From Actinomycetospora corticicola (GTDB taxonomy: Bacteria; Actinomycetota; Actinomycetes; Mycobacteriales; Pseudonocardiaceae), in the NCBI RefSeq assembly GCF_013409505.1, contig NZ_JACCBN010000001.1, positions 3,162,001-3,226,000 of the forward strand: a stretch of 64,000 nt of DNA. Reading direction: 5' to 3'. The notes below the pieces were generated by a model that saw nothing but the letters and a program-made list of their open reading frames with translations, made no database searches and was not told where the DNA came from. The position numbers and the translations under genes were made by a program. Below, in pieces: positions 8,247 to 62,419 of this stretch (position 1 is its first letter; the number at the start of each line of letters is the position of its first letter).

Positions 8247-8252
8247 ACGCTA
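8247..8252 (-). promoter_or_regulatory. Leaderless -10 element of tmk operon
   Basis: TAGCGT (TANNNT) on the minus strand ends seven bases before the GTG at 8239. That spacing places the transcription start at or next to the start codon. No good -35 is visible. The palindromic repeat lies immediately upstream, so the IS110 insertion 89 bases from this box could alter operon expression. Confidence 0.5.
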
Positions 8253-8286
8253 GCCAGGAACGCAGTGTGACCGCGGTGCGGGACCC

Positions 8287-8341
8287 GCGAGGTGCACATC
8301 GGGCAGGGCTACCGGCCTCCGGACCTGCCCCACGTGAACCT
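8287..8341 (+). repeat. REP-like palindromic repeat, family A, copy 1 (interrupted by IS110)
   Basis: This is the left arm and most of the right arm of a roughly 60-base imperfect palindrome. It runs from GCGAGGTGCACATCGGGCAG to CCTGCCCCACGTGAACCT. The final bases of the right arm (CGTGG) reappear at 9657-9661 after the insertion sequence. Other copies are at 9715, 9799, 38477, 62276 and 62360. Confidence 0.85.
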
Positions 8342-8392
8342 CAGTGTCAGGGTCGGTGGTGCCGCTGTTGCGGTGGTCGGGATCCTGGTCGT

Positions 8393-8528
8393 CGGTGCTC
8401 TGGCTCTCCATGTGACTGCCCCTGATGGGCCAGCGCGAGCTGTGCCGGGCACCGGCGGCCAGGCCGGCCGGCGTGACTTGATAGGAGCGTGGCAGCGCCC
8501 CCACTGAGGTGTGTCCGCCGACCGGCCC
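8393..8528 (+). ncRNA. Predicted IS110 bridge RNA (target and donor loops)
   Basis: Two stem-loops fit the published bridge-RNA plan. In the target loop, the outer stem CGGTGC/GCACCG (8393-8398 with 8449-8454) encloses a left guide CCATGTGACT (8408-8417), a hairpin GCCC-CTGAT-GGGC (8418-8430) and a right guide CGCGAG (8434-8439). The left guide matches the repeat sequence just before the CT core (9/10 with the copy at 38521, 7/10 plus two wobbles at the occupied site), and the right guide is the complement of CTCGCG. In the donor loop, a GC-rich stem (about 8464-8473 with 8517-8528) encloses ATAGGAGC (8481-8488), identical to the right end at 9645-9652, and CACTGAG (8502-8508), the exact complement of CTCAGTG at 8340-8346. 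The RNA's true ends are unknown. Confidence 0.78.
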
Positions 8529-8569
8529 GGCCTGTTGTCCCCCGCAGGCTAGGAGCAGGAGACCCTTCG

Positions 8570-9643
8570 ATGGTCCTGATGGTCGGAGTCGATGTCCACA
8601 AAGACACCCACACCGCGGTGGTGGTCGATCAACTCGGGGTGCGCCGCGCGCAGCGTCGGGTGCAGGCCACCGACGCCGGGCACCTGGAGTTGTTGGCGTG
8701 GGTCCAGGGTGTGGGTGAGGAGTTCGCGGTCGCGGCTGGGCCCGAGATCGAGTGGGCGGTGGAGGACTGCCGGCATGTGTCGCTGCGCCTGGAGCGGGCG
8801 TTGCTCGCCGCGGGGCAGCGAGTGCGGCGGGTGCCGCCGAAGCTGATGGCCGGTGCCCGGAGCTCGGCGCGGGAGTTCGGGAAGTCCGACCCGATCGATG
8901 CGACCGCGATCGCCCGGGCCGCGTTGCGGGAGCCGGACCTGCCCCTGGCCGAGCACACCCCGGCCAGCCGGGAGCTGAAGCTGCTGGTCGATCACCGTGA
9001 GCACCTGGTGGCGGAGCGGACCGCGATGATCTGCCGGCTGCGTTGGCACCTGCACGAGCTCGATCCCGAACTCGAGCGCAGCATCCCGGCCCGCGGGCTG
9101 GACAAGCCCACCCGTCTGACCGCGCTGGCCGCGCTGCTGCCCGCCGAGCACCCCGGGCTGGTCGGCGAACTGGCCGCCGAGCTGGTCGGCGACATCGCCG
9201 CACGCACCACCCGCATCCGCGCCCTGGAGCGCGAGATCGCCCGCCGCGTCGCCCAGCTGGCCCCGCAGCTGCTCGAGTTGCCCGGCTGCGGGCCGCTCTC
9301 GGCGGCGAAGCTGCTCGCCGAGACCGCCCGCCCGGGCCGGTTCCGCTCCGAGGCCTGCTTCGCGATGCACGCCGGGGTCGCACCGATCCCGGCCTCCTCG
9401 GGGCGCACCGACCGCCACCGGCTGGCCCGCGGCGGCAACCGGCAACTCAACGCCGCCCTGCACCGCATCGCGCTGACCCAGACCCGGCTACCCGAGAGCC
9501 TCGGACGGGCCTACTACGACAAGCGTCGAGCCCGCGGCGACCGACACAACGACGCCCTCCGCGCCCTCAAACGACGCCTCGCCCGCGTCGTGTTCAACCT
9601 GCTCCGACAGACCGAACCCACCCCAACCCCCGCCGCCGCTTGA
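8570..9643 (+). CDS. IS110-family RNA-guided recombinase (transposase)
   Basis: This protein is the recombinase that moves the element together with its bridge RNA. The 357-residue product has the RuvC-like DEDD domain: Asp8 in VGVDVHKDTHT, Glu in the segment GPEIEWAVEDCRH (59-65), and Asp107 and Asp110 in KSDPIDATAIAR. A coiled region (about 140-230) follows, then the Tnp/IS116/IS110/IS902 domain beginning LLELPGCGPLSAAKLLAE, which holds the candidate catalytic Ser276 or Ser277 in APIPASSGRTDRH. No frameshift or internal stop is seen, so it looks active. The ATG at 8570 follows AGGAGCAGGAG at a normal distance. An upstream in-frame ATG exists but would translate the bridge-RNA region. The stop is 11 bases from the right end. 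Confidence 0.95.
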   Translation: MVLMVGVDVHKDTHTAVVVDQLGVRRAQRRVQATDAGHLELLAWVQGVGEEFAVAAGPEIEWAVEDCRHVSLRLERALLAAGQRVRRVPPKLMAGARSSAREFGKSDPIDATAIARAALREPDLPLAEHTPASRELKLLVDHREHLVAERTAMICRLRWHLHELDPELERSIPARGLDKPTRLTALAALLPAEHPGLVGELAAELVGDIAARTTRIRALEREIARRVAQLAPQLLELPGCGPLSAAKLLAETARPGRFRSEACFAMHAGVAPIPASSGRTDRHRLARGGNRQLNAALHRIALTQTRLPESLGRAYYDKRRARGDRHNDALRALKRRLARVVFNLLRQTEPTPTPAAA

Positions 9644-9693
9644 CATAGGAGCAGCTCGTGGACCGGCTGGCCGACCGCAAGCCGCCGGCCGGA

Positions 9694-9707
9694 CCCGCCG
9701 TCGGGAA
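9694..9707 (+). repeat. 14-bp dispersed motif CCCGNCGTCGGGAA (example copy)
   Basis: CCCGCCGTCGGGAA lies here between the IS right flank and repeat A2. Exact matches to CCCGNCGTCGGGAA or its complement also start at 3130, 15451, 29383, 42645, 42693, 43015, 43641, 48498, 52112, 55755, 57608 and 59908. Copies sit in intergenic DNA or in weakly constrained parts of genes. Confidence 0.7.
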
Positions 9708-9714
9708 GCCCCCC

Positions 9715-9775
9715 GCCGAGGTTCACACCAGGCAGGGCCAGCAGCCCCGGAACCTGCCCCACGTGAACCTGGTGG
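9715..9775 (+). repeat. REP-like palindromic repeat, family A, copy 2
   Basis: An imperfect inverted repeat with arms GCCGAGGTTCACACCAGGCA and CCTGCCCCACGTGAACCT. It is uninterrupted and supplies the empty-site comparison for the IS110 insertion in copy 1. Its GGCAGG core (9731) is 83 bases from that of copy 3 (9814). Confidence 0.85.
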
Positions 9776-9798
9776 ACCGGCCGCTCGACCCGCCCCCG

Positions 9799-9858
9799 GC
9801 GAGGTGCACATCAGGCAGGGCCAGCGGCCCCGGAACCTGCCCCATGTAGACCTCGCGG
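9799..9858 (+). repeat. REP-like palindromic repeat, family A, copy 3
   Basis: Arms GGCGAGGTGCACATCAGGCA and CCTGCCCCATGTAGACCTCG, closing with CGCGG. The right arm carries a CCATGTAGAC-CT-CGCGG site that would fit the IS110 right guide exactly. It lies between copy 2 and the ahcY terminator. Confidence 0.85.
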
Positions 9859-9880
9859 CGAGAGCGCGCCCGGACACGAC

Positions 9881-9915
9881 GAAGGGCCCCGCCGCACGTG
9901 GCGACGGAGCCCTTC
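9881..9915 (-). terminator. ahcY: Hairpin terminator of ahcY
   Basis: GAAGGGC (9881-9887) pairs with GCCCTTC (9909-9915), with an inner CGCC/GGCG stem. It lies 33 bases past the ahcY stop. No long U tract follows, as is usual in very GC-rich actinobacteria. Confidence 0.7.
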
Positions 9916-11499: not shown

Positions 11500-11519
11500 T
11501 CGGGCGCGGTCCTCCACCG

Positions 11520-11600
11520 TGTGGAGGCGCCCTTGCGATGGTGCGGAATCCACCGAGCGTGGCGGGCGAGGCCCGTTGCAGCGCCACTCGGCGGCTCCGA
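11520..11600 (-). promoter_or_regulatory. SAH riboswitch upstream of ahcY
   Basis: On the minus strand, P1 is CCGCCGAG (11594-11587) with CTCGGTGG (11557-11550). It encloses the family core TGGCGCTGCAACGGGC, a short P2 hairpin ACGGGC-CTC-GCCCG and the CCACG-CTCGG junction. The pseudoknot forms between GGCGC in GGCGCTGC and GCGCC in AAGGGCGCC (11534-11526). These are the conserved elements of the SAH aptamer (GCGCUGC core, P1 with CUCGG, downstream GCGCY strand). Known SAH riboswitches raise ahcY expression when SAH accumulates. The leader from here to the start codon is about 90 bases. Confidence 0.85.
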
Positions 11601-38476: not shown

Positions 38477-38538
38477 CGCGAGGTGCACGCCAGGCAGGTC
38501 CGCCGGCCCGCGCGCCTGCCCCATGTCACTCTCGCGAC
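38477..38538 (+). repeat. REP-like palindromic repeat, family A, copy 4
   Basis: Arms CCGCGAGGTGCACGCCAGGC and CCTGCCCCATGTCACTCTCG. Its right arm, CCATGTCACT-CT-CGCG, is the best match in the window to both guides of the IS110 bridge RNA (nine of ten left, six of six right), yet it is unoccupied. Confidence 0.85.
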
Positions 38539-62275: not shown

Positions 62276-62337
62276 CGCGAGGGTGACACCAGGCAGGCCC
62301 ACGGGGCTCCCGGGCTGCCTCACGTACATCTCGCGGT
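62276..62337 (+). repeat. REP-like palindromic repeat, family A, copy 5
   Basis: Arms CGCGAGGGTGACACCAGGCA and GCTGCCTCACGTACATCTCG. It pairs with copy 6 as a doublet with 83 bases between their GGCAGG cores (62292 and 62375), the same as copies 2 and 3. Confidence 0.85.
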
Positions 62338-62359: not shown

Positions 62360-62419
62360 GCAAGGGTGACACCAGGCAGGCCAGCGGGCCTCGCGGGCTG
62401 CCTGATGTACCCCTCGCGG
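62360..62419 (+). repeat. REP-like palindromic repeat, family A, copy 6
   Basis: Arms CGCAAGGGTGACACCAGGCA and GCTGCCTGATGTACCCCTCG. It ends only six bases before the glpD stop codon. Confidence 0.85.

Follow-up and report, generated by a model that had tools for sequence, protein, structure and literature searches.

The window, a 64,000-nucleotide stretch of the Actinomycetospora corticicola genome, carries an IS110 element of 1313 bp (Table 1). The genome (6.17 Mb, single contig) holds six full-length matches to it, all with identical ends; four of these copies are 98–100% and two are 89% identical. The recombinase frame runs from an ATG at 8570 to a TGA at 9641–9643, and its product scored 90.7 bits for DEDD_Tnp_IS110 (PF01548, cut-off 29), 73.1 bits for Transposase_20 (PF02371, cut-off 21.3) and 216.5 bits for the NCBI model of IS110 RNA-guided transposases (NF033542, cut-off 140). 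ISCro4 and IS621 provide the closest solved structures, each a distant likeness (IS621, E = 3.8e-11). The architecture is that of the IS110 group, with 228 bp of non-coding DNA ahead of the ATG and 11 bp past the stop. None of 12 inverted pairs with arms of at least 12 bases links the two element ends, and a promoter and terminator scan of the linear window, to which a circle junction is out of reach, gave no hit in 8250–9900, sigma-70-like promoters included.

Table 1 Coordinates of the element, its predicted RNA and the REP-like units (window positions)
Feature	Position	Strand	Remarks
IS110 element	8342..9654	+	1313 bp; six own-genome copies with identical ends
CT core	8340-8341		Repeated at 9655-9656
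IS110 recombinase, 357 aa	8570..9643	+	DEDD_Tnp_IS110 and Transposase_20
Predicted 5' stem-loop	8348..8388	+	Approximate limits, from the fold; putative role by analogy with IS621 (PMC11208160)
Predicted bridge-RNA body	8390..8535	+	Target loop, then donor loop
Left target guide CCATGTGACT	8408..8417	+	Tracks left flanks among relatives
Right target guide GCGCGAG	8433..8439	+	Complement CTCGCGC; refines CGCGAG at 8434-8439
Left donor guide ATAGGAGC	8481..8488	+	Letters identical to right end 9645-9652
Right donor guide CACTGAG	8502..8508	+	Complement of CTCAGTG 8340-8346, across the left junction
Right end TTGACATAGGAGCAG	9640..9654	+	Left donor site; possible -35 of a putative circle-junction promoter
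Occupied REP-like palindrome, 54 bp	8289..8342	+	Its right arm serves as left target and is followed by CT; last base shared with the element
Right target flank CTCGTG	9655..9660	+	CTCGCG in the five other own copies
Empty REP-like unit	9718..9771	+	
Empty REP-like unit	9801..9854	+	
Empty REP-like unit	38480..38533	+	Copy at 38521 of the original prediction
Empty REP-like unit	62279..62332	+	
Empty REP-like unit	62362..62415	+	

The left non-coding end is predicted to be a bridge RNA with a two-loop fold. The original prediction had already read it as such and had proposed folding it with covariance; this check, run on 19 aligned non-coding ends, returned a consensus fold in which internal loops interrupt two stem-loops. 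In that structure 98.3% of cells are paired, compared with at most 46.9% in slid versions, a percentage favoured by the derivation of the structure from the same 19-sequence alignment. Changes on both sides of a pair, that is, compensatory changes, occur in 14 of 40 pairs, all of them in helices 1 and 2, which make up the target loop, and none of 500 shuffles reached all five of the measures observed for the consensus. The helices of the donor loop hardly vary and contain zero double changes, so that covariation lends no support to this loop. The window RNA itself (8390–8535) folds at -84.1 kcal/mol (z = -3.53), with 1 of 200 shuffles equally good. By analogy with IS621, the RNA would be transcribed, the element would form a circle and the recombinase would be catalytically active. 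An Rfam scan of the window at gathering scores had no match at the predicted bridge RNA; its sole match was an SAH riboswitch at 11518–11595 on the minus strand, downstream of which lies an open reading frame that we take to be adenosylhomocysteinase-like.

Both donor-side matches of the original prediction, between CACTGAG and the left junction and between ATAGGAGC and the right end, can be read directly from the letters. Within the close clade, donor guides and element ends are near-constant. Comparing the left donor guide with the element's own right end at 34 loci, we found 20 exact matches, 8 with one mismatch and 6 with two or more. At 8 loci the right end is AGAGGAGC instead of ATAGGAGC; four of these (L098, L100, L104 and L143) carry the guide AGAGGAGC at the usual position, while in L138 the match is found only at another position, and L092, L107 and L141 match poorly. 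The donor loop would pair with the joined ends of the element, TTGACATAGGAGCAG-CT-CAGTGTCAGGGT, which also present a possible -35 and a possible -10 with a 17-base spacer. A junction promoter of this kind exists in IS621 (PMC11208160), and by analogy the circle junction of the window element may possibly act as one.

All six copies in the genome (6/6) lie inside units of a single repeat family, a REP-like palindrome of 54 bp, with GTGNNN-CT to the left of the element and CTCGYG to its right. In common orientation their left flanks read CCACGTGAACCT (twice), TGATGTGAACCT, CCACGTGCACCT, TGACGTGACACT and TGACGTGACCCT, each of them an arm of the palindrome. Their right flanks all start with CTCG, continuing as CTCGCG in 5/6 and as CTCGTG in the window copy, whose occupied site has CCACGTGAAC-CT on its left. 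In the sister species G013 (genus members are numbered G, loci L), where copies are mostly broken by contig ends and one is interrupted, counts were taken by end: 4/4 left ends lie in the REP-like repeat and 5/5 right flanks start with CTCGCG. A left-end remnant of the element in G002 likewise lies within the repeat. The six own copies, the nine ends in G013 and the G002 remnant, all on the predicted arm, support the proposal that the element's programming directs its insertion to a REP-like family.

The repeat is an imperfect palindrome with the consensus GAGGTtCACatcagGCAGGtccnggGGcCnncggaccTGCCtgatGTgaacCTC, derived from 32 distinct units (the window and 40 fetched loci), and its units have a mean folding energy of -23.8 kcal/mol versus -17.3 for shuffled letters. 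As in RAYT-linked REP families, it is a short palindrome in many dispersed copies; the RAYT transposase that marks such families is missing, with no Y1 (RAYT-type) transposase (PF01797) found in the own genome and 5 of 14 control genomes positive, and we therefore name it REP-like rather than RAYT-linked REP. A literature search, with subscription papers outside its coverage, retrieved no report of repetitive extragenic palindromic repeats in Pseudonocardia.

The arm pattern and its reversed-pattern control were counted in a subset of seven genus members (of 18), giving 180/10 in the own genome, 157/10 in G013, 47/17 in G008, 21/9 in G002, 17/15 in G001, 12/16 in G003 and 10/12 in G006. Half-sites, counted in all 18 members, numbered 142 in the own genome (G000), 78 in G013, 43 in G008, 20 in G002 and 6–13 in the other 14. 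The original prediction had gone on to treat RNA and repeats as parts of a single system. Read as co-evolution, with the repeats spread by the element or serving it, this has in its favour that half-sites are most numerous in the members with REP-aimed copies or ends (G000 and G013) and that the own genome has no Y1 transposase to account for the repeats. We nevertheless consider it unlikely: an element query found no match in G008 despite the arms and half-sites of that genome, and the own genome has 180 arms to only six copies. G003 and G006, conversely, contain relatives of the element at control-level repeat counts. Because G008 has repeats without a detectable element, the claim of one system is unsupported and went too far; as far as shown, the repeat is a landing site and not a partner.

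On the preferred reading, in which an RNA finds that landing site, the target loop would pair with one REP-like arm on both sides of the CT core, where the recombinase would exchange strands. The 9/10 match of CCATGTGACT to the repeat copy at 38521 was confirmed (the arm, at 38516, reads CCATGTCACT), as was the complementarity of CGCGAG to CTCGCG, a guide better taken as GCGCGAG. At the window copy the left match contains 1 mismatch and 2 wobbles across 8 bases (ATGTGACT/ACGTGAAC).

Once duplicate rows of one insertion had been removed, 41 distinct insertions remained, 10 of them REP-aimed, and these carry 23 left guides in all. Across these relatives the target guides covary with the target flanks, and sibling target loops do follow their own flanks, as the original prediction required of them. 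In permutations that ignore kinship among elements, the 23 left guides, with one site each, summed to 192.0, compared with 166.5 for the best of 20000 shuffles (0/20000), and 2/20000 shuffles were as good as the observed pairing of the right guides (14 distinct guides, 32 insertions). During scoring a left guide could slide anywhere up to 22 bases from the junction, whether its pair was real or shuffled; the mean score was 8.35/10, falling to 5.83 when guides were reversed and to 5.78 when they were reverse-complemented. A first test of 8 right guides had given 410/20000, the lower figure following better anchoring and the increase to 14 guides; right guides scored 5.73/7 in the predicted register and no more than 3.06 when slid. 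The agreement has exceptions. Another element's guide gave a better fit at 8/31 sites (L002, L081, L083, L086, L088, L164, L166 and L167), L167 has almost no match, and the right guide of L095 fails (1.0/7).

Before bridge RNAs were known, recognition by the protein alone was proposed for other REP-targeting transposases, and REP targeting has been described for transposases of other IS families (PMC1525189). Were it to hold here, the letter matches would be accidental or captured target DNA. This is a very improbable account, since the pairing of 23 left guides beats 20000/20000 shuffles while the donor loop is near-constant, and since each guide keeps its place in an RNA that covaries. In addition, the guides of L182 and L183 (GCAGTCCTG and TACAAGTGCC) match their own non-promoter left flanks and are unrelated to those of the other elements.

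Within the repeat family, measured against a background of own-genome loci that are not random, in small samples of near-identical and partly dependent elements, insertions whose guide has CC before ATGTG (n = 7: four own, three from G013) were at CC arms in 6/7 cases, compared with 26 of 100 own-genome arms among the matches listed of 180 (p = 0.0027), and those with a TG-type guide were at TG arms in 3/3 (p = 0.15 versus background). Right flanks read CTCGCG in 10/11 insertions (six own, five G013) versus 26/59 unoccupied unit ends (p = 0.0043), the 59 being the set that remained after five occupied ends were dropped. Within those sample limits guide-compatible arms are favoured, so that the element occupies an RNA-predicted subset of the repeat. 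The least probable account, that guides and sites seem paired only through common descent and that few independent events lie behind them, draws on the many near-copies among the guides and on the blindness of the permutations to kinship, but the 18 promoter-like left guides alone still scored 148.5 versus 138.5 for the best shuffle (0/20000), and CC- and TG-guide insertions occupy different arms (p = 0.033, 10 insertions).

We thus regard as highly likely an IS110 element with a bridge RNA in its left end, whose donor loop would pair with its own joined ends and whose target loop would pair with a REP-like arm, strands being exchanged by the recombinase at the CT core, in a lineage that has probably been retargeted.

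The relatives suggest what that lineage was retargeted from. A donor-loop pattern search found the RNA in 15/390 family genomes, and a protein scan gave 79 loci. Among the 41 insertions, the start-aimed set comprises the 26 non-REP insertions with a readable right end (L079–L091, L095, L108, L112, L129, L166, L176, L178, L179, L189, L192, L195, L198 and L200). The count leaves out five non-REP rows whose right end could not be read; L170 fits the start-aimed pattern, L167 and L168 fit it poorly, and L182 and L183 are aimed elsewhere. TANNNT is present in the left flank at the position of the guide match in 26/26, the hexamer being identical to that of the guide in 25/26 and one base off in L178. 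A start codon lies exactly 6 nt past the element's AGGAG (GGGAG in L166) in 25/26, with 0–2 at other offsets; the exception is L095, with its start codon at 8 nt. Inspected singly, 20/21 loci, including L120, L134 and L135 from outside the table, had the start at 6 nt, and the frames opened by those starts span 80–660 codons, that of L166 reaching the end of its locus.

With the two junction bases counted once, TANNNT precedes the start by 6 nt in 19 insertions, 7 nt in 4 and 8 nt in 3. This spacing is the layout of leaderless genes, from which we infer that the target genes are leaderless. At one of them, cinA in Pseudonocardia, TANNNT-6/7-ATG or GTG followed by an open frame is found in 20/24 relatives that lack the element at this position, the exceptions being L203, L214, L218 and L224 (in L218 the frame closes after 17 codons). 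AGGAG lies within the conserved right end and is kept in lineages that insert elsewhere, so any role as a ribosome site would be a by-product. Taken together, we think it likely that the window element belongs to a mainly actinobacterial clade of IS110 elements whose bridge RNAs recognise leaderless genes by two signals, the promoter -10 box through the left guide (TANNNT) and the start codon through the right guide (NCATG/NCGTG). After insertion between the two, the host promoter would fire into the element's RNA and transposase gene, the AGGAG 6 nt before the start would keep the gene translatable, and the window lineage would represent a natural reprogramming of this RNA to the REP-like repeat in which the donor half stayed as it was.

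From 99 extracted recombinases we chose 54 different rows, each 290 residues or longer, and built a tree rooted at the midpoint; it lacks L129, L182 and L183, which were either missing or of insufficient length, and L103, with its ATG 5 nt past AGGAG, was labelled as other. The four REP-aimed rows form a single clade (support 100/100), sister to a start-aimed element of Actinomycetospora lemnae (95/94), and both fall inside a 17-row clade that is otherwise start-aimed (100/99). In the relatives the donor loop is kept, with target guides that fit the TANNNT box and the start codon. The nesting of the REP clade among start-aimed elements points to a probable natural retargeting: the REP-aimed lineage probably arose in Actinomycetospora from a -10-like/start-codon-aimed ancestor by a change of the target guides alone, in a direction that the midpoint root makes likely rather than proven.

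In the start-aimed set, all 26 left flanks close with N+T, and 25/26 right flanks open with C+N. An exchange between the two core bases fits these flanks better than a copied CT does, and the junction letters suggest that strands are exchanged at this point in the siblings; the REP clade cannot settle the crossover point because its sites offer CT. In IS621, the top strand is cleaved after the T, which is near-invariant (PMC11208158). Sibling junctions such as those of L083, L085, L087 and L089 keep T/C although the adjoining target bases differ.

Another IS110 lineage is present in several genera (L099, L101, L111, L116, L118, L119, L127 and L128). Its right flanks resemble CATC-GCGGAGCTCGACC, and the left flank is CTTTCTTCG in 7/8. 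The right flanks of L099 and L128 encode an HTH_21 domain, presumably from an IS3-type transposase, so that the target of this lineage may be another insertion sequence.

IS900 of Mycobacterium avium paratuberculosis is an IS110-family element. Also actinobacterial, it has the motif CATGNNNNNNTCTCCTT, on the other strand AAGGAGA-N6-CATG (PMC8141618), which is the nearest precedent that we found for the start-codon aim. The IS900 motif consists of an existing ribosome-site-like stretch and an ATG, whereas the relatives described here read TANNNT and a start codon and supply AGGAG from the element end. A literature search of titles and abstract starts, with subscription papers outside its coverage, did not find a -10/start-codon or leaderless-start aim of IS110 relatives. 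The terms 'start codon' and 'leaderless' are absent from the available text of PMC11208160, the relevant passages of PMC11187229 concern cargo and curation, and the accessible part of PMC12500396 names a Kocuria IS110 element and gives no target rule.

Insertion of IS110-family elements in REPs (PMC1525189), bridge RNAs (PMC11208160, PMC11208158) and natural redirection (PMC11187229) are already established. IS621 of Escherichia coli resembles the window element in its IS110 recombinase, its left-end bridge RNA with target and donor loops, its CT core and its insertion in REP elements (PMC11208160, PMC11208158); the two differ in host phylum, in guide letters and in the repeat family that they occupy, and their proteins are only distantly similar. 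ISPa11, ISPpu9, ISPpu10 and ISRm19 are likewise IS110-family elements with all counted copies in REPs (7/7 for ISPpu9), but their hosts and repeats are those of Pseudomonas and Sinorhizobium, and a guide RNA is absent from the available text of that report (PMC1525189). The seekRNA pair of ISEc11 and ISXne4 offers a natural redirection of close relatives through changed target letters (PMC11187229); those elements belong to the IS1111 group, whereas the window element belongs to the IS110 group and its probable switch is from a start codon to a repeat.

The window element and its relatives make up a closely related natural series of bridge RNAs in which the donor half is near-constant, the target half is changed and the occupied sites are available. 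Such a series is what learning target rules (mismatch, wobble and core) and natural target change needs. If the start-site reading is true, an RNA-guided element targets the grammar of gene starts and not any one gene, and it may take over a promoter and leave the gene itself unharmed.
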